Positions 51,230 through 64,000 of a DNA stretch of 64,000 nucleotides are shown piece after piece. Source of the DNA: Chitinophaga vietnamensis (GTDB lineage: Bacteria > Bacteroidota > Bacteroidia > Chitinophagales > Chitinophagaceae); NCBI RefSeq assembly GCF_902167635.1, contig NZ_CABHMS010000002.1:868001-932000 (forward strand). The letters run 5' to 3'. Both the position numbers and the translations under genes were made by a program. Every line of letters begins with the position of its first letter. Within the stretch, counting starts at the first letter, position 1. A model generated the notes under the pieces. It worked only from the letters and a program-made list of their open reading frames with translations, did not search any database and was not told where the DNA came from.

Positions 51230-51339
51230 AGCTGGGGTTTTATAGTTAAAAATTACAGTTTTTTATTGAAAAGGACGGAAGTGAATGATTGAAGCGTAGA
51301 TCATATTTGGTAGCGGGGTTTGATGAATGCGGTTGCTAC

Positions 51340-51560
51340 CGCCCCTACGGGGCGGCATATTGGTAGATGCGATGCGGGCTACCAACATATCGCCCCTATG
51401 GGGCGGCATATTGGTAGATGCGATGCGGGCTACCAACATATCGCCCCTATGGGGCGGCATATTGGTAGATGCGATGCGGGCTACCAACATATCGCCCCTA
51501 TGGGGCGGCATATTGGTAGATGCGATGCGGGCTAACAACATATCGCCCCGTAGGGGCGAA
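51340..51560. repeat. Tandem array of a 51-bp unit, four full copies plus a partial
   Basis: Full units start at 51340, 51391, 51442 and 51493; a partial fifth starts at 51544. Each holds two nested palindromes: CGCCCCTATGGGGCG and GGTAG-(N12)-CTACC. Copies 2-4 are nearly identical; copy 1 has TACG instead of TATG. Because 51 is a multiple of 3, all frames stay open and produce spurious ORFs. There are no variable spacers, so it is not CRISPR. Confidence 0.92.
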
Positions 51561-51777: not shown

Positions 51778-51921
51778 TTAGCATACCCATTGGGTTTCCC
51801 CACAGCTGATGAACCGGGTGGTCACCAGGGAACGTTCTTTTTCGTTTTCGGGTACCGGTTTGCTGAGTGCGCAAACCTTGATCTTGACGAGCTTCAGCCT
51901 GGAAGTGTTTTTCTTTTTCAT
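51778..51921 (-). CDS. Putative RiPP (class I lanthipeptide-like) precursor peptide 1
   Basis: A 47-residue peptide: a Lys-rich start (MKKKNTSR), then leader motif LKLVKIKVCAL at residues 9-19. The rest has two Cys near the end (Cys40, Cys47) among Ser/Thr residues (TTRFISC). The leader matches peptide 2 (63457-63624) in register: L9, L11, K13, I14, K15, V16, L19. From memory this resembles the leader of Bacteroidota class I lanthipeptide precursors. The gene has a plausible promoter and a strong terminator. No modifying enzyme gene is adjacent, so it would rely on enzymes encoded elsewhere. It is too short for routine gene calling. Confidence 0.65.
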   Translation of the reverse strand: MKKKNTSRLKLVKIKVCALSKPVPENEKERSLVTTRFISCGETQWVC

Positions 51922-54970: not shown

Positions 54971-55906
54971 ATGAAAGTCGTCATTATCCTCCTCATCCTC
55001 GGTCTGATCGTCATTTTTATTATCTGGCTTTTTTCTGCCGGACCTGTGGTAGCTGGCGCCTGTGGCCTGGTACGGCGTACCATCAGAAAAGACTATTGCA
55101 GCGGCAGCTGCGTACCTGGCGCTTTTTGTATTGTTACTGCCACGCGTTCCTGGGCTATCTTCGGTACGCAGGCAGCAGCCTGTAAATGTGCGTTTATCAT
55201 CATGCCTGATGGCAGCCTGTATGAAGGCGGCGGCCTGCCGCCAGGATCGGGTATTGAAGAAGGCGCCATCCCTCATGGCGCCGATGTTATCTATATTGAT
55301 TCGGGCCATTGCCTCGAGCTATGCCTCAGCATTAAAGTGGCTACCGACGCGCAAGGCAATCCTGTGATCGACGACAATCGCGTGAAGCGCGTGATAGATG
55401 GTATCAACAAGATCTGGGGCTGTGGCGGCACGGGCCAGTGTTGCCTGCGCTTTACCATCTCGGAGATCAAACATATCCAGATGAAAAATTTCATTGACCC
55501 ATACGCTAACAATAAAGCCGATCTGGAAGATACGCTCAAGCTGTCGCGAAGCCAGACCTGCTACAATCTTTACTTCGTGGACAATATGCTCGCCGGTACG
55601 CCCGGCATCACGCAGTTCGGTTCCAACAACGATGGCTCACTAGTACGCACCAACGGTTATCCGAATGATGATACACTGATCACCATCGGAGCACATGAAC
55701 TGGGCCATGCACTGGGCCTCGCAAGAGATACCAATGGCACTGACGATGTGGGCGTAGTGCACCACAGCAACCATCCTAAAAATCTGATGGGGCCTGTTGC
55801 CAACCTGCAAGTGGAACTGAACAGGATGCAGTGCCAGAAAGCGCGCACAAGCCAGCTGCTGAATGATACCAATACACCTTGTACCGAACAGGCACAGGAA
55901 AAATGA
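54971..55906 (+). CDS. Membrane-anchored Cys-rich zinc metalloprotease-like protein
   Basis: A 311-residue protein with an N-terminal membrane anchor (VVIILLILGLIVIFIIWLF). The ectodomain has about 14 Cys (YCSGSC, ACKC, HCLELC, GQCC and others) and a metzincin-like active-site helix HELGHALGLARD (His242, Glu243, His246) with NLMGP as a possible Met-turn. In metzincins the third zinc ligand is normally in the HExxHxxGxxH/D position; here that position holds Arg followed by Asp, and HHSNHP downstream may supply it. Function unknown. It starts 134 bp after the upstream gene. Confident as a gene; the activity is uncertain. Confidence 0.8.
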   Translation: MKVVIILLILGLIVIFIIWLFSAGPVVAGACGLVRRTIRKDYCSGSCVPGAFCIVTATRSWAIFGTQAAACKCAFIIMPDGSLYEGGGLPPGSGIEEGAIPHGADVIYIDSGHCLELCLSIKVATDAQGNPVIDDNRVKRVIDGINKIWGCGGTGQCCLRFTISEIKHIQMKNFIDPYANNKADLEDTLKLSRSQTCYNLYFVDNMLAGTPGITQFGSNNDGSLVRTNGYPNDDTLITIGAHELGHALGLARDTNGTDDVGVVHHSNHPKNLMGPVANLQVELNRMQCQKARTSQLLNDTNTPCTEQAQEK

Positions 55907-59467: not shown

Positions 59468-60162
59468 GATATCAGGTGTGGAAGGATGTCGGCAATGGCG
59501 TCCACTTTGAAGAATTTCGGATCTTCTACATTGTGGGTCACCTCTTCGTGTATCCAGGTGATATGATAGGGGATATGTATCGCATAAGCGCCGAGGGCCA
59601 GCACGGGCAGCACGTCAGATTTAAGGGAATTACCCAGCATCAGGAATTCTTCCGGCTTGCAATCGAGGTGGCGCAGCAGTTTCCGGTAGTCTTTTTCTTT
59701 TTTGTCGCTCATGATTTCGATGTGATGGAAATAATGAGAGAGGCCGGATTTGGTCAGTTTCCGTTCCTGATCCAGCAGATCGCCCTTGGTAGCTACTACC
59801 AGCTTGTATTTGCCATGCAGCGCCTGTAACACGGTTTCTACATGGTCCAGCAGCTCGATGGGTTTGTTGAGCATCTCCTGGCCGTATTCGATCACCTTTT
59901 GTATCAGCAGGGGATTGGCCGTATTTTCCGATACCCGCAGGATGGTTTCTATCATGCACAGCATCAAGCCCTTAATGCCGTAGCCATACAGCGGAAGGTT
60001 TTGCATCTCTGTTTTGAAAAGCTCCTGTGATACGCTGTGGTGCGGGAGATAGTCTTCCAGCAATTGTGCGAATTTGTCTTCTGTTTCGCGGAAATAAGGT
60101 TCATTCACCCACATGGTATCGTCAGCATCAAAAGCGATTACTTTAATATGGTTGATCATCAT
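59464..60162 (-). CDS. HAD-family phosphatase
   Basis: A 232-residue HAD hydrolase. Motif I DADDT (nucleophile Asp12, Asp14) is near the N-terminus; motif II is in YKLVVATKG (Thr), with a Lys in SDKKEKDYRK and motif IV LMLGNSLKSDV. Members dephosphorylate small metabolites. Two adjacent ATG codons (60162, 60159) give nearly the same protein; an upstream longer frame is not protein-like and would extend into the divergent Crp gene. It is transcribed divergently from the Crp/Fnr regulator and coupled to the CatA-like gene. The substrate is unknown. Confidence 0.9.
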   Translation of the reverse strand: MMINHIKVIAFDADDTMWVNEPYFRETEDKFAQLLEDYLPHHSVSQELFKTEMQNLPLYGYGIKGLMLCMIETILRVSENTANPLLIQKVIEYGQEMLNKPIELLDHVETVLQALHGKYKLVVATKGDLLDQERKLTKSGLSHYFHHIEIMSDKKEKDYRKLLRHLDCKPEEFLMLGNSLKSDVLPVLALGAYAIHIPYHITWIHEEVTHNVEDPKFFKVDAIADILPHLIS

Positions 60163-60218
60163 TATTTTTACATTTAAGGAGCTACAAATTACATCCCGTA
60201 TGATTGAAAAGCGGGAAA

Positions 60219-60235
60219 TTTGTCCCGGAGACAAA
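60219..60235. promoter_or_regulatory. Palindrome before the Crp/Fnr gene
   Basis: TTTGTC-CCGGA-GACAAA, a 6-bp perfect inverted repeat with a 5-base spacer, directly before the Crp/Fnr ATG and 57 bp from the divergent HAD gene start. It may be an operator for autoregulation; it differs from classical TGTGA-type sites. Confidence 0.4.
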
Positions 60236-60236
60236 T

Positions 60237-60881
60237 ATGCTTAGAACAAATCTACCTTTATTATCTTTTATGGAGCAGTTCTCCGTTACGGCGGGGGGCA
60301 ATACCATTTACCAGAAAACCTTTACGGCGGGATCGCTGTTTATCCGCCAGGGCAGCCATATACAGCATGCTTATGTCATAATGGATGGCATCAGTAAGTG
60401 TTATATTTCGGAAGATAACGGTAAAGACTATATTTTCGAATTTCTTGGCAAAGGAGAGATCGTTGGCGACCTGGAAGGCCTGCGTGGAACGCCCTGTCTC
60501 TGCAATGTGGAGGCAGTAACAGACCTCAGCGTGTATGTGATCCGTCAGGATGTATTTACCGCTATGGTCAATACCGAACCCGCTTTTAACCGTTTGCTGA
60601 TGGAGAGCCTTGCCATCCGCTTGGGACAGACCTGCGAACGCGCTTCCTATCAACAACTCTATCCCATTGAATACGGTCTGCTCCGCCTTCTGATGCTGGC
60701 CGCCGATCAGCAAATTTCTTTCTCCAAAAAGGACCTTGCAGATTACCTCGGCATCACCGTCCGCAGCTTTAACCGCACCATCCGCCAGCTCCGCGAAAAA
60801 AACGTCATCAGCCTCGCCGGCTTGCGTATTGATATCGGAAAACGCGAGCTGGAAGCGCTGTTGAAGGCGTACGCGGAATAG
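60237..60881 (+). CDS. Crp/Fnr-family transcriptional regulator
   Basis: A 214-residue regulator. Residues about 12-115 form a cNBD-like beta-roll (FTAGSLFIRQGSHIQHAYVIMDGISKCYI; EFLGKGEIVGDLEG). The C-terminal Crp-type winged HTH occupies about 155-205 (FSKKDLADYLGITVRSFNRTIRQLREKNVI). No Fe-S Cys pattern is visible and the cAMP Arg is not evident, so its ligand may be different or absent. The start MLRTNLPLL gives the usual family length; the upstream extension lies in the divergent HAD gene region. The hairpin element starts two bases after its stop. Confidence 0.9.
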   Translation: MLRTNLPLLSFMEQFSVTAGGNTIYQKTFTAGSLFIRQGSHIQHAYVIMDGISKCYISEDNGKDYIFEFLGKGEIVGDLEGLRGTPCLCNVEAVTDLSVYVIRQDVFTAMVNTEPAFNRLLMESLAIRLGQTCERASYQQLYPIEYGLLRLLMLAADQQISFSKKDLADYLGITVRSFNRTIRQLREKNVISLAGLRIDIGKRELEALLKAYAE

Positions 60882-60882
60882 C

Positions 60883-61072
60883 GCGAAGGTTGTCTGGCTC
60901 AGGATTATTTTGATTGAAAGGATTACCATGATTTTTTTTGCAGGATTAATAAGGATTAAAAAAGATTTTCGGGTAGATCTTCGCGAATCCTTTCTTAATC
61001 CTTATTAATCCTGCAAAAAAAAATCATGGTAATCCTTTCAATCAAAATAATCCTGAGCCAGACAACCTTCGC
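60883..61072. repeat. 190-bp hairpin element, copy A
   Basis: Near-perfect inverted arms of 77 and 78 bp (60883-60959, 60995-61072; one base differs in a T8/A9 run) around a 35-bp core. The core is the exact reverse complement of that in copy B at 63627-63818. Begins two bases after the Crp stop codon. No ORF; no transposase. Ends read GCGAAGGTTG... and ...CAACCTTCGC. Confidence 0.92.
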
Positions 61073-61085
61073 TTGTATCTTCTTT

Positions 61086-61093
61086 TATTTTTG
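61086..61093 (+). promoter_or_regulatory. -7 promoter box (TAnnTTTG)
   Basis: TATTTTTG matches the consensus, 14 bp beyond the hairpin element and 44 bp before the DUF2961 gene start. No standard -33 element was seen at the right spacing. Confidence 0.4.
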
Positions 61094-61137
61094 CGTATCA
61101 TTAAGTATTCCTATTTCACGTTATAAAGCAATACTTC

Positions 61138-62295
61138 ATGAGAAAACTAAGTTTGTTCCTATTGCTGTTTGCCTTCACGCAGGTGCGTGCGCAGCAGGCG
61201 GGGAGCTTCAATGGCCTGGATATGAATCTGGGCAATATATTCCGTCTTTCTGATGCGCAAACGCGGTCCATTAGTCCGGAGAATTTTACGGGGGAGAAGG
61301 GCAAGGGCGGGATGGCCCGTCCGGAAGATCAGTCGAAGCCGAACCAGGCCAATGCGGCAGGCGCCGCACGCGAGCTGGGGCAAGGCTGGAAGGTGAATCC
61401 TTTTATCGTGATCAATCCAGGGCAAACGGTGACGCTCGCGGAGATCGACGGCCAGGGCGCTATTCAGCATATGTGGATGACGCCTACCGGCAACTGGCGT
61501 TATTCTATTTTGCGCATCTATTGGGATGATGAAAAAGAACCTTCCGTGGAAAGCCCTGTGGGCGACTTCTTCGGCATGGGATGGGGCGAATATGCCTTGC
61601 TTACATCCTTGCCGGTAGCCGTGAATCCTGGCAGCGCCTTCAACTGCTACTGGCCGATGCCCTTCCGGCGGAAATGCCGCATCACCATGGAGAACCTCGA
61701 TAAAGACGCGATGCGCCTTTACTACCAGGTGGATTATACCCTCACCACTGTGCCGGACGATGCCGCTTATTTTCATGCGCAATTCCGCCGCAGCAATCCC
61801 AACACTACTTCTAACTATGTGATCGTTGATAACATCAAAGGTAAAGGCCAGTACGTAGGCGTATACCTGGCCTGGGGCGTTACAAACAATGGCTGGTGGG
61901 GAGAAGGAGAGATCAAATTTTTCATAGATGGCGATAACCGCTTTCCCACGATCTGTGGCACCGGCACCGAAGATTATTTCTGTGGCTCCTATAATTTCGA
62001 CAGAGAAGGAAAGTATACGCCTTTCTGCACGCCTTATTCCGGGCTGCCGCAAGTGTTGAAGCCCGATGGTACGTACCGGTCGCAACAGCGCTTTGGCTTG
62101 TACCGCTGGCATATCATGGACCCGGTGCGTTTCGGCAAAGATCTGAAAGTAAGCATCCAGGACCTCGGCTGGCGGCACGACGGGCGCTATCTGCCGCAGC
62201 ATTCTGATATCGCCTCGGTGGTATACTGGTATCAATCGGAGCCGCATCAACCTTTTCCGAAGCTGCCTTCAAAAGATATGTTGGAAGTGAACTGA
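61138..62295 (+). CDS. DUF2961 (GH172-like) secreted glycoside hydrolase
   Basis: A 385-residue exported protein. The signal peptide ends QVRAQQ. The double jelly-roll DUF2961 fold is indicated by GQGAIQHMWMTPTGNWRYSILRIYWDDEKEPSVESPVGDFFG, FNCYWPMPFRRKCRITMEN and the GTGTEDYFCGSYNF segment, whose Glu is the likely catalytic acid. GH172 members act on alpha-arabinofuranosides or difructose anhydrides. The natural substrate cannot be deduced. The gene follows the hairpin element and converges with the epimerase gene through a shared terminator. Confidence 0.92.
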   Translation: MRKLSLFLLLFAFTQVRAQQAGSFNGLDMNLGNIFRLSDAQTRSISPENFTGEKGKGGMARPEDQSKPNQANAAGAARELGQGWKVNPFIVINPGQTVTLAEIDGQGAIQHMWMTPTGNWRYSILRIYWDDEKEPSVESPVGDFFGMGWGEYALLTSLPVAVNPGSAFNCYWPMPFRRKCRITMENLDKDAMRLYYQVDYTLTTVPDDAAYFHAQFRRSNPNTTSNYVIVDNIKGKGQYVGVYLAWGVTNNGWWGEGEIKFFIDGDNRFPTICGTGTEDYFCGSYNFDREGKYTPFCTPYSGLPQVLKPDGTYRSQQRFGLYRWHIMDPVRFGKDLKVSIQDLGWRHDGRYLPQHSDIASVVYWYQSEPHQPFPKLPSKDMLEVN

Positions 62296-62297
62296 TA

Positions 62298-62330
62298 AAA
62301 AAATCCCCTCGCAGCAGCGGGGGATTTTTT
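62298..62330. terminator. Bidirectional terminator
   Basis: AAATCCCC / GGGGATTT stem around TCGCAGCAGCG, with A- and T-runs on both sides. It serves both the DUF2961 gene and the convergent epimerase gene. Confidence 0.85.
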
Positions 62331-62355
62331 ATAATGGGATAGTGAAGTAGTTATA

Positions 62356-63273
62356 TTAAAACCCCCAGCTGCGCATGGCCTTGAGGTCTTCTTTTGCGCT
62401 GGCCAATGGTGTTTTATCCTGATACGATTCCTGTTCAATGATGAAGTATTTGGTGCCGCCGGCTTGCAGGCCGAGCTTGATGATATCTTTCACGGGGATG
62501 ATGCCTTTGCCCAGTACGGTGCTTTCATAGCCGCCGCCCATCTCTCCTTTGCCGGAGGATTTAATTTCATCTTTCACATGCATCAGTTCAAAGCGGTTGG
62601 GATATTTTTTGAGGATATCCATCGCGATGCCGCCGGCGTGGTACATGTTACCGATATCCAGCTGTTGTGCTACCAGCGATGGATCGGTATTTTGAAGGAT
62701 CAGGTCGAAGAGCTTCCGGCCATTGAGTTCCGTGCTGAATTCAAAGTCGTGATTATGGTAGCCGAATTTCATGCCGGACTTTTTACAAAGTTCACCACAT
62801 TTATTGAAAACGTCCATGTATGTTTTGAAGTCGTCGTAAGTTTTGCGCAAACTTTCATCGAGCCATGGGCTGATCACATAGTGCTGGCCCATGGCGGCGG
62901 CATCTTCTACGGTATATTTCCATTCGTCGGTGAAATCTTTTTTAGCGGCATCCCAATGTTGCGGGCGCAGTACGGTATGACCACTCGGCATTTTGAGGCC
63001 GAGACCCTTGAGCAGTTTTTTAAATTCCGTGGTGGTATAGCCATAGAATTTGCGGTTCACATAGTTGGCATGTTCTACGGTGGTATAGCCCATGGCGGCG
63101 AGTTGTTTGAGGGTGCCGGCAGGGTCTTTCTTCATATCGTCGCGAACAGAATACAGTTGGATGCCAGTGATGCCTTTGCCTTTGAAGGCCGCCTGCAAGG
63201 TAGCCGGGAGCAATGCCGCGCCGCCGATGGCGAGGCTGCTGTACTTCAGAAAATTTCTTCTTGATTCATTCAT
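62356..63273 (-). CDS. Tat-exported sugar phosphate isomerase/epimerase (AP endonuclease 2-like TIM barrel)
   Basis: A 305-residue protein. The N-terminus MNESRRNFLKYSS is a Tat signal (RRxFLK) followed by a hydrophobic run and LQAAF. The mature TIM barrel includes GIQLYSVRDDMKK, YTTVEHANY, GYHNHDFEF and LDIGNMYHAG (metal ligands Glu, His, Asp), then LMHVKDE and IIEQES. Such xylose isomerase-like proteins epimerise sugars or act on inositols. The upstream ATG two codons earlier is possible. Its 3' end faces the DUF2961 gene, so both could serve carbohydrate use, but they are transcribed separately. Confidence 0.92.
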   Translation of the reverse strand: MNESRRNFLKYSSLAIGGAALLPATLQAAFKGKGITGIQLYSVRDDMKKDPAGTLKQLAAMGYTTVEHANYVNRKFYGYTTTEFKKLLKGLGLKMPSGHTVLRPQHWDAAKKDFTDEWKYTVEDAAAMGQHYVISPWLDESLRKTYDDFKTYMDVFNKCGELCKKSGMKFGYHNHDFEFSTELNGRKLFDLILQNTDPSLVAQQLDIGNMYHAGGIAMDILKKYPNRFELMHVKDEIKSSGKGEMGGGYESTVLGKGIIPVKDIIKLGLQAGGTKYFIIEQESYQDKTPLASAKEDLKAMRSWGF

Positions 63274-63368
63274 GAGCATGATAATTAAGATCGTGGAATT
63301 TATGATGGGTCGTTTACATCAGATTTAAATTTACGCATTAAGCGCCGGAATTGCAACCGGCAGGCAAT

Positions 63369-63392
63369 AAAAAAATCCCGTCTTTACGGGAT
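63369..63392 (-). terminator. Intrinsic terminator on the minus strand, no obvious gene
   Basis: ATCCCGT / ACGGGAT stem with a 4-base loop, followed on the minus strand by six T. It lies between the epimerase start and peptide gene 2, and no minus-strand gene ends just before it; it may insulate the epimerase promoter. Confidence 0.65.
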
Positions 63393-63456
63393 ATAAGGCA
63401 CGGGAAGAATGCAGTAAATTCAGTTATATTTTTAAACCCTGTAATACCCACTCACA

Positions 63457-63624
63457 ATGAAGCACACAAACAGCAAAAAACTGCAATTAGGAAAGATCAA
63501 AGTTGCCACCCTGAACCCTGCTGCCACTGCCAAGCAGCCTAATCAGTTCATTAGCAACTCCAGCTGCATGCACGTTTGCCCTACCATCTGCTCGCAGCGC
63601 TGCCCGACATTTGACTGCTTCTGA
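63457..63624 (+). CDS. Putative RiPP (class I lanthipeptide-like) precursor peptide 2
   Basis: A 55-residue peptide. Residues 9-19 (LQLGKIKVATL) match peptide 1 in register: L9, L11, K13, I14, K15, V16, L19, and also M1, K2, N5. After an Ala/Thr/Pro linker, the C-terminal core is Cys-rich: Cys37, 41, 45, 49 and 54, with nearby Ser33, 35, 36, 46 and Thr43, 51 that could be dehydrated and ring-closed. This is what one expects of a lanthipeptide precursor. The stop is 3 bp before the hairpin element. No LanB/LanC-type gene is within the window. Too short for routine gene calling. Confidence 0.7.
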   Translation: MKHTNSKKLQLGKIKVATLNPAATAKQPNQFISNSSCMHVCPTICSQRCPTFDCF

Positions 63625-63626
63625 GA

Positions 63627-63818
63627 CGCGAAGCTTGTCTTGCTCAGGATTATTTTGATTGAAAGGATTACCATGATTTTTTTTGCAGGATTAATAAGGA
63701 TTAAGAAAGGATTCGCGAAGATCTACCCGAAAATCTTTTTTAATCCTTATTAATCCTGCAAAAAAAAATCATGGTAATCCTTTCAATCAAAATAATCCTG
63801 AGCAAGACAAGCTTCGCG
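63627..63818. repeat. 192-bp hairpin element, copy B
   Basis: Same element as 60883-61072 but inverted: its 35-bp core (63705-63739) is the exact reverse complement of copy A's. Arm ends read CGCGAAGCTTGTCTTGCTC, and the matching changes occur in both arms, so pairing is preserved. Starts three bases after the peptide stop. No ORF inside. Confidence 0.92.
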
Positions 63819-63874
63819 TTTTGTAATTTAAACGCACTGTATTATTTTCACTATGCGTTTAACTGATACTGCCT

Positions 63875-64000
63875 TTGCTCCACGATAATGAAAAGGATCT
63901 GTTGCTCTCCATTGCCAACGGAGATGAGCGATGCTTCCAGGTGCTTGTAACAAGGCACTGGCCGCAGGTGTATGGCACCGCCCTCCGGCTTACGCGCTCG
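63875..64000 (+). CDS. ECF RNA polymerase sigma factor, 5' partial
   Basis: The first 42 codons run to the window end. The frame reads LLHDNEKDLLLSIANGDERC, then FQVLVTRHWPQVYGTALRLT, matching sigma-70 region 2 of FecI-like factors (compare the 6372-6965 gene). A stop lies shortly upstream in frame and no ATG is present, so a TTG start is proposed, as for the other FecI-like gene. An operon with FecR and SusC may follow beyond the window. Confidence 0.8.
   Translation, partial: MLHDNEKDLLLSIANGDERCFQVLVTRHWPQVYGTALRLTRS

Follow-up and report, generated by a model that had tools for sequence, protein, structure and literature searches.

A short gene near the end of the window (the whole 64,000-nucleotide stretch analysed here, G000:C2:868001-932000 of a 6.31-Mb genome that is assembled in 15 contigs and 99.98% complete) encodes a 55-residue peptide, the 55-mer, which very probably is the precursor of a peptide natural product with rings. 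Judged from sequence comparison, the 55-mer is likely a class I lanthipeptide precursor that is modified in trans by a LanB dehydratase and a LanC cyclase encoded at a conserved locus on another contig, here called the hub. About a dozen scattered precursor genes appear to share this one enzyme pair.

The 55-residue peptide and its leader

The translation of the gene is MKHTNSKKLQLGKIKVATLNPAATAKQPNQFISNSSCMHVCPTICSQRCPTFDCF, and its parts are listed in Table 1. The leader motif of Bacteroidetes class I LanA precursors is described by Walker et al. 2020 (PMC7268733) as LxLxKx5L, and residues 9–19 of the 55-mer, LQLGKIKVATL, satisfy it. The ten leader positions that the original prediction gave as common to the 55-mer and a 47-residue peptide of the same window, the 47-mer, all match (M1, K2, N5, L9, L11, K13, I14, K15, V16 and L19). 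The profile NF038153 (lant_leader_L1a) scores 15.8 bits (E 0.011) against residues 1–22, which is under its curated cut-off of 22, and thus the 55-mer is not assigned to this family. A Pfam scan of the 55-mer gave no match at cut-off, and its sequence holds no Gly-Gly (GG) cleavage site at the end of the leader.

A more specific profile, A4, was built from 34 leaders of enzyme-linked hub precursors, all from other species and with zero sequences of the own genome; its rows were chosen with the profile A2, of which the 55-mer is a member, and 55-mer orthologues make up three of them, so that the test is partly circular. Against 521 window frames (ATG-started, 35–130 aa, nested starts counted), A4 gave 36.0 bits (E 1.8e-10) for the 55-mer, 9.5 bits (E 0.038) for the 47-mer and 1.4 bits for the next frame; without the three orthologue rows, the first two scores were 34.5 and 8.1 bits. 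When A4 was cut to ten rows of one core type (APTYTGC-like), the 55-mer kept the first place at 26.8 bits (E 1.5e-7), with the 47-mer down in fourth at 2.4 bits. In the whole genome, A4 gave 14 matches up to an E-value of 10, and eight places reached E<1e-3; the 55-mer had an E-value of 8e-8, and the 47-mer was absent from the 14. By these scores, the 55-mer is a firm candidate and the 47-mer a tentative one.

Residues 33–55 contain six Ser/Thr and five Cys. The five Cys, at positions 37, 41, 45, 49 and 54, have the spacing of 4, 4, 4 and 5 from which a regular ring pattern had been suggested, and four of them (Cys37, Cys41, Cys45 and Cys49) are kept in the orthologue alignment A3 along with S33, S35, S36, T43 and S46. 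In this alignment S36 and Cys37 are nearly invariant, and the remaining listed residues are invariant. However, Cys54 is missing in five of ten A3 orthologues, which rules it out as part of the conserved ring pattern. All 11 A3 sequences have His39, which is replaced by Arg in two of a wider set of 16.

A search of 99 genomes with the 55-mer gave matches in 14, the own genome among them; five of the matches are weak (E 1e-4 to 9e-4), and one of these five, in G013 (L068), lacks the core. The core SNSSCxHxCPTxCSxxC, or a close variant of it, is present in eight other genomes plus G112. Orthologues adjoin the hub LanB/LanC genes in G016, G022 and G112, lie 16–17 kb from the hub in G027, and are located on another contig or about 1 Mb from the hub in G018, G019, G031, G050 and G051. 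By eye, the flanking genes in the own genome are unlike those of the five far orthologues examined, and within these five the flanks agree only between G018 and G019. All 21 named-genome loci found with the orthologue alignment belong to Chitinophaga, and a search with A3 found 21 database proteins, the ten named ones all being called hypothetical protein.

For the leader, the linker (residues 22–31) and the core (residues 32–49), the pN/pS ratios over 16 sequences with pairs pooled are 0.42, 0.85 and 0.18, as obtained by simple counting without a tree, with paralogues included and synonymous sites near saturation in distant pairs. At the codon level, purifying selection is thus present, and it is strongest in the Cys/Ser/Thr core. 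The expectation of a conserved leader joined to a variable core was borne out for the leader, which is common to the family; however, the core is the best-conserved part within the orthologue group, and thus the tail is not simply variable.

For the 47-mer, the C-terminal ends of two G106 precursors, CIETWRVC (L270) and CSATEWVC (L273), resemble its own CGETQWVC. The 47-mer may be of another core type that is also present in G106, a genome with no hub-type LanB among those fetched, and because of this resemblance it may fall in a group served by another enzyme. An in-frame tandem repeat, ARIASTNMPPHRGDMLV, adjoins the 47-mer at window positions 51263-51541, and an NMAPLRGA stretch near the lanthipeptide locus on contig C10 looks similar to it.

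One base after the 55-mer stop codon begins a near-perfect palindrome (Table 1), which is a MITE-like interspersed repeat with a second copy in the window at 60882-61072. Scoring 40 of 133 genome candidates gave 80 strand matches, and further copies in the genome are probable. The RNA fold of 63620-63830 has a predicted energy of −142.4 kcal/mol (z −22.9), and the palindrome could also serve as a transcript 3′ end. Rfam gave no match at gathering score over 60000-64000. Elsewhere in the window, a 311-aa protein (54971-55906) with a HELGHALGLARD motif looks zinc metalloprotease-like by eye; this HExxH protein was considered as the leader protease and dropped, as it has no Pfam match and no link to the 55-mer.

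Table 1. Features of the window (plain positions) and of the genome (contig:position)
Feature	Position	Strand	Remarks
55-aa lanthipeptide-type precursor gene	63457..63624	+	ATG to TGA; top of 521 window frames; congeneric orthologues
Leader, residues 1–21	63457..63519	+	LxLxKx5L at L9–L19; published motif; alignments A1, A2, A4
Variable linker, residues 22–32	63520..63552	+	no GG site; pN/pS 0.85 over residues 22–31
Predicted core, residues 33–55, SNSSCMHVCPTICSQRCPTFDCF	63553..63621	+	alignment A3; pN/pS 0.18 over residues 32–49
Near-perfect palindromic repeat, ~194 bp	63626..63819	.	starts one base after 55-mer stop; genome copies
47-aa second candidate precursor	51778..51921	-	core ends FISCGETQWVC; 9.5 bits with A4
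Hub LanB	C4:249191-252316	-	PF04738 + PF14028, complete Pfam domains
Hub precursor	C4:252533	+	NF038153 23.7 bits, cut-off 22; passes as 'class I lanthipeptide'
Hub LanC	C4:252816-254030	+	PF05147 complete; WCYG and CHG align to NisC
Hub response regulator, NarL/LuxR-type	C4:254159-254788	+	hub locus
Solitary full-length LanB (L034)	G000:C1:786920-790063		18-kb stretch free of recognised precursors, LanC and C39 transporter
A1 places on contig C2	C2:931457 (55-mer), C2:919859 (47-mer), C2:380601, C2:202280		
A1 places on contigs C1 and C3	C1:410873, C1:165861, C1:764112, C3:212807		
A1 places on contigs C7 and C4	C7:245390-246054 (three in a row), C4:252533 (hub)		

The hub locus and the scattered precursors

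The own genome encodes four full-length LanBs (PF04738 and PF14028) and three stand-alone LanCs. A further LanC-like domain (G000:C4:154738-155745) is part of an 890-aa frame, which perhaps is a fused lanthionine synthetase of another class. One LanB/LanC pair, on contig C4, belongs to the hub, where a precursor and a response regulator are also found. The zinc-ligand motifs WCYG and CHG of the nisin cyclase NisC line up with the same motifs of the hub LanC, whose best NCBIfam match is the LanM model TIGR03897 (92.7 bits, under the cut-off of 304). Of nine listed homologues of the hub precursor, NCBI calls two (P0029 and P0030) class I lanthipeptide, and the rest are hypothetical or unnamed. 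The family PF28317 is precomputed for some relatives; a Pfam rescan of P0007, P0028 and P0029 gave no match, and thus nothing is built on it.

The hub is a conserved unit. In stretches of 18–20 kb, LanC and the regulator are present in 19 of 19 hub loci and LanB in 17, and no further gene family (protease, exporter) recurs in more than six of the 19. The reading of the 55-mer as a RiPP precursor thus gains support, since LanB and LanC are encoded elsewhere in the genome and a conserved locus carries the same leader type.

With the leader alignment A1, 12 precursor-like places of the non-GG type were found in the own genome (Table 1), nine of which belong to A1 itself and are therefore found by construction. 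Eight of the 12 reach E<1e-3 with A4, which is free of own-genome sequences, and three are weak with it, i.e., C2:380601 (E 0.26), C1:764112 (E 5.2) and C1:165861 (E 5.5). Further peptides with the motif do therefore occur in the genome, and their positions agree with the predicted scattering: 11 of the 12 are at least 22 kb from any LanB/LanC match or on another contig. Only C4:252533 adjoins enzymes; C1:764112 is about 23 kb from the solitary LanB, and the other ten are hundreds of kb from LanB/LanC matches or on other contigs. Contig C2, which carries the 55-mer, has neither a LanB nor a LanC match in the genome-wide search.

GG-type precursors (NF038153) adjoin two other LanB/LanC loci, on contig C10 and at C1:837-838 kb. 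At G000:C2:202280-202708 (L036), on a contig with no LanB/LanC match, non-GG and GG precursors stand back-to-back, a few hundred bases apart. A k-mer scan, judged by eye, of the 300 bp upstream of the 12 own precursors and the 150 bp upstream of 149 hub precursors showed no common motif; what was seen is an A-rich ribosome-site-like sequence, and other k-mers occur in at most 19 of the 149.

Leader and hub LanB across the genus

The leader was surveyed in 79 genomes, including the own one, with alignment A2 at E up to 0.001. It was detected in 51 genomes, each of which also carries LanB; LanB is present in 56 genomes, five of which are without the leader, and none of the 23 LanB-less genomes has the leader. 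Such counts are not independent trials, because the species share ancestry. The LanB set was taken from 188 PF04738 matches, of which those listed above 300 bits gave 133 stretches, and four own loci were added; partial and lower-scoring PF04738 matches were left out, and a hub-type LanB split into pieces would be missed. The resulting table holds 136 LanB loci with one LanB each (the second LanB of L137 is uncounted, and L201 is without LanB).

Among the LanBs listed, 48 are of the hub type (at least 45.6% identity to the LanB on contig C4), one per genome, and all 48 loci have LanC and at least one leader-type precursor within a few kb. A C39 transporter was found near none of these 48. The other 88 LanB loci listed are at most 42.4% identical to the LanB on contig C4, and none has a leader-type precursor nearby; GG-type precursors are present at 37 of them, a C39 transporter at 42, and neither LanC, transporter nor precursor at 30. 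'Precursor nearby' was scored with A2, a profile that includes own-genome sequences. In a FastTree phylogeny of the listed LanBs of at least 900 aa (n=135, with L191 left out), the 48 hub LanBs are exactly monophyletic with support 1.0.

Among the LanBs listed, a hub LanB is present in 48 of 51 leader genomes and in none of 28 leader-less genomes, and three of 31 genomes without a hub LanB carry the leader. The presence of the leader in all 48 hub genomes partly follows from the hub itself carrying a leader precursor. The informative parts are the exact match between the LanB clade and its neighbouring precursor type, and the lack of a hub LanB, in the fetched set, from all 28 genomes that do not have the leader.

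Precursors were labelled 'noGG' when they score at least 20 bits with A2 and are not classed as GG type. In the 149 such precursors, which come from 47 hubs in other genomes, the first 22 residues are free of Cys, and every precursor carries Cys further on. Since 17 of the 149 do hold a GG, in residues 20–36, its absence is usual, not universal. Some core types recur among them: 38 are APTYTGC-like, 56 are SQGAPICS.DSCRF-like and seven are of the SNSSC type, and several of the remaining 48 end like TTTTHRTFDC. Among the best 150 of 335 leader matches, 90 are within 10 kb of a hub LanB, 54, from 29 genomes, lie at other places, as far as 4.7 Mb away by coordinates on one contig, and six are in genomes without a hub LanB.

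Three leader genomes, G054, G059 and G106, have no hub LanB in the fetched set. G054 and G059 have kept the hub LanC, the regulator and precursors, with no LanB match in the 18-kb stretch; a 211-aa ORF upstream of these precursors (L209/L210) is phosphopantetheinyl transferase-like by eye. G106 has 15 leader matches, 11 with GG, one with GA and three with neither (L253, L270 and L273), and its precursors are scattered or grouped (L250, L253, L256, L259, L262, L264, L266 and L268-L275). As G106 has leaders but its fetched LanBs include none of the hub type, the leader is not strictly dependent on the hub LanB.

Proposed pathway, rival readings and known systems

We infer a pathway in which leader residues 1–21 would dock on the hub LanB dehydratase on contig C4, which would glutamylate core Ser/Thr and, by elimination, convert them to dehydroamino acids; Glu-tRNA-dependent Ser/Thr dehydration is described as the general class I mechanism (PMC9993889). 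The hub LanC would then add Cys thiols to form thioether rings, most likely four (Cys37, Cys41, Cys45 and Cys49), with a fifth on Cys54 in the own species. Most of the other scattered precursors would probably be served by the same pair. Leader removal and export would proceed via a protease and a transporter outside the hub (unclustered lanthipeptide proteases are the topic of PMC8960859), and the product would be secreted, possibly with a role in antagonism or signalling. The claim of one modification system acting in trans is supported for the 55-mer by the co-occurrence with the hub and the orthologues beside it, and is tentative for the 47-mer; an enzyme common to both peptides is less certain than the use of the hub by the 55-mer.

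The main rival concerns the identity of the enzyme. The solitary LanB on contig C1 is a second candidate, and the 55-mer might be a class I precursor that is dehydrated by this LanB, the likeliest of the others, or by several, with the hub LanC or another LanC cyclising it. Because there is no recognised precursor in the 18-kb stretch around the solitary LanB (nor a LanC or C39 transporter), its substrate is probably encoded elsewhere. Among the LanBs listed, its nearest tree relatives come from G054 and G059 and then G106, i.e., the three leader genomes without a hub LanB, and G106 has scattered leader-type precursors with no hub LanB among those fetched. However, the hub LanB follows the leader better than the solitary LanB does (48 of 51 leader genomes vs. 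none of 28 others, among the LanBs listed), LanB loci without LanC, C39 transporter and precursor also occur in the leader-less G042, G057 and G117, and 55-mer orthologues adjoin the hub in three species. We thus regard dehydration by another LanB as unlikely.

Two further readings would remove the 55-mer from the lanthipeptides. The invariance of His39 in 11 of 11 A3 sequences and the regular spacing of the Cys would agree with a small secreted or cytosolic Cys-rich peptide that is held by disulfides or binds a metal through His39 and four Cys, the leader resemblance being a signal shared for another reason. This is very unlikely in view of the leader match to hub lanthipeptide precursors (E 8e-8), its absence from all 23 LanB-less genomes, the conserved Ser/Thr near the Cys and the orthologues beside LanB/LanC; in addition, His39 is replaced by Arg in two of 16 sequences. 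A degenerating or accidental ORF that yields no product is less credible still: its 3′ end abuts a repetitive palindrome and its neighbouring genes differ, by eye, from those of the five far orthologues, whereas the pN/pS values over 16 sequences (core 0.18, leader 0.42), the orthologues in several species and a score far above that of other window ORFs argue against this reading. Modification in trans by the hub LanB/LanC is the most likely reading.

If the hub pair modifies about ten of the scattered precursors, the genome would have a lanthipeptide repertoire spread over its length and missed by cluster-based mining. Precursor mining of the kind described in PMC7268733 looks within few genes of the enzyme, and if one LanB/LanC pair serves precursors that are megabases away, many Bacteroidetes class I lanthipeptides would be uncounted. 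The scattered cores would also offer a library made by nature for a single class I enzyme pair of broad specificity; the precedents for such promiscuity, ProcM and SyncM, are class II (PMC10783134). Questions raised are which protease cuts the GG-less leader, and whether the hub response regulator controls the distant genes. Searches of mainly open literature gave no paper on scattered class I precursors. A 2020 study of Pedobacter lusitanus by Caetano may already describe unclustered class I precursors.

Among known systems, the Bacteroidetes LxLxKx5L class I precursors (PMC7268733; NF038153 and NF038158) are alike, as there described, in leader motif, length and Ser/Thr/Cys-rich C-terminus, and also in that a full-length LanB and a separate LanC are present in the genome. 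In contrast, the 55-mer has no GG, scores under the NF038153 cut-off and lies far from any LanB/LanC match, and the matching hub LanB locus is without a C39 transporter. The search by Walker et al. covered only seven genes around a LanC-like gene (PMC7268733), and therefore precursors as distant as these fall outside it. GG-leader class I lanthipeptides with a C39 protease-transporter also differ from the 55-mer, which has no GG. The pinensins, antifungal class I lanthipeptides, come from the same genus, Chitinophaga; the likeness is one of genus and LanC type. LanM-related LanCs are reported in a family that includes pinensin (Walker et al., PMC7268733), and the hub LanC likewise best matches the LanM model TIGR03897, under its cut-off.

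The ChmABC (Chryseobacterium) and RuiABC (Runella) systems are similar Bacteroidota LanA/LanB/LanC systems, whose precursors are reported to be dehydrated in E. coli with the GluRS/tRNA-Glu of the producer or a relative (PMC9993889); there the precursor and enzymes were expressed as one set, whereas the 55-mer is encoded away from every LanB and LanC match. A parallel in layout is found in the prochlorosins and synechococsins, which are described as scattered precursors with a shared leader and diverse cores that are processed by, or assigned to, one promiscuous enzyme, ProcM or SyncM (PMC10783134). The precursors studied here are alike in being scattered away from the enzyme, with a common leader and diverse cores. 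We lean cautiously towards a class I counterpart of the prochlorosins, i.e., one conserved LanB/LanC/response-regulator hub that lacks a transporter and a protease of its own and would serve about ten precursors with unlike cores, mostly scattered single genes. According to the same description, the prochlorosins are class II products of a single LanM with GG leaders of the Nif11 family, whereas here LanB and LanC are separate and the leaders are of the LxLxKx5L type, mostly without GG; the prochlorosin and synechococsin precursors number 29 to 79, as compared with about a dozen in this genome.
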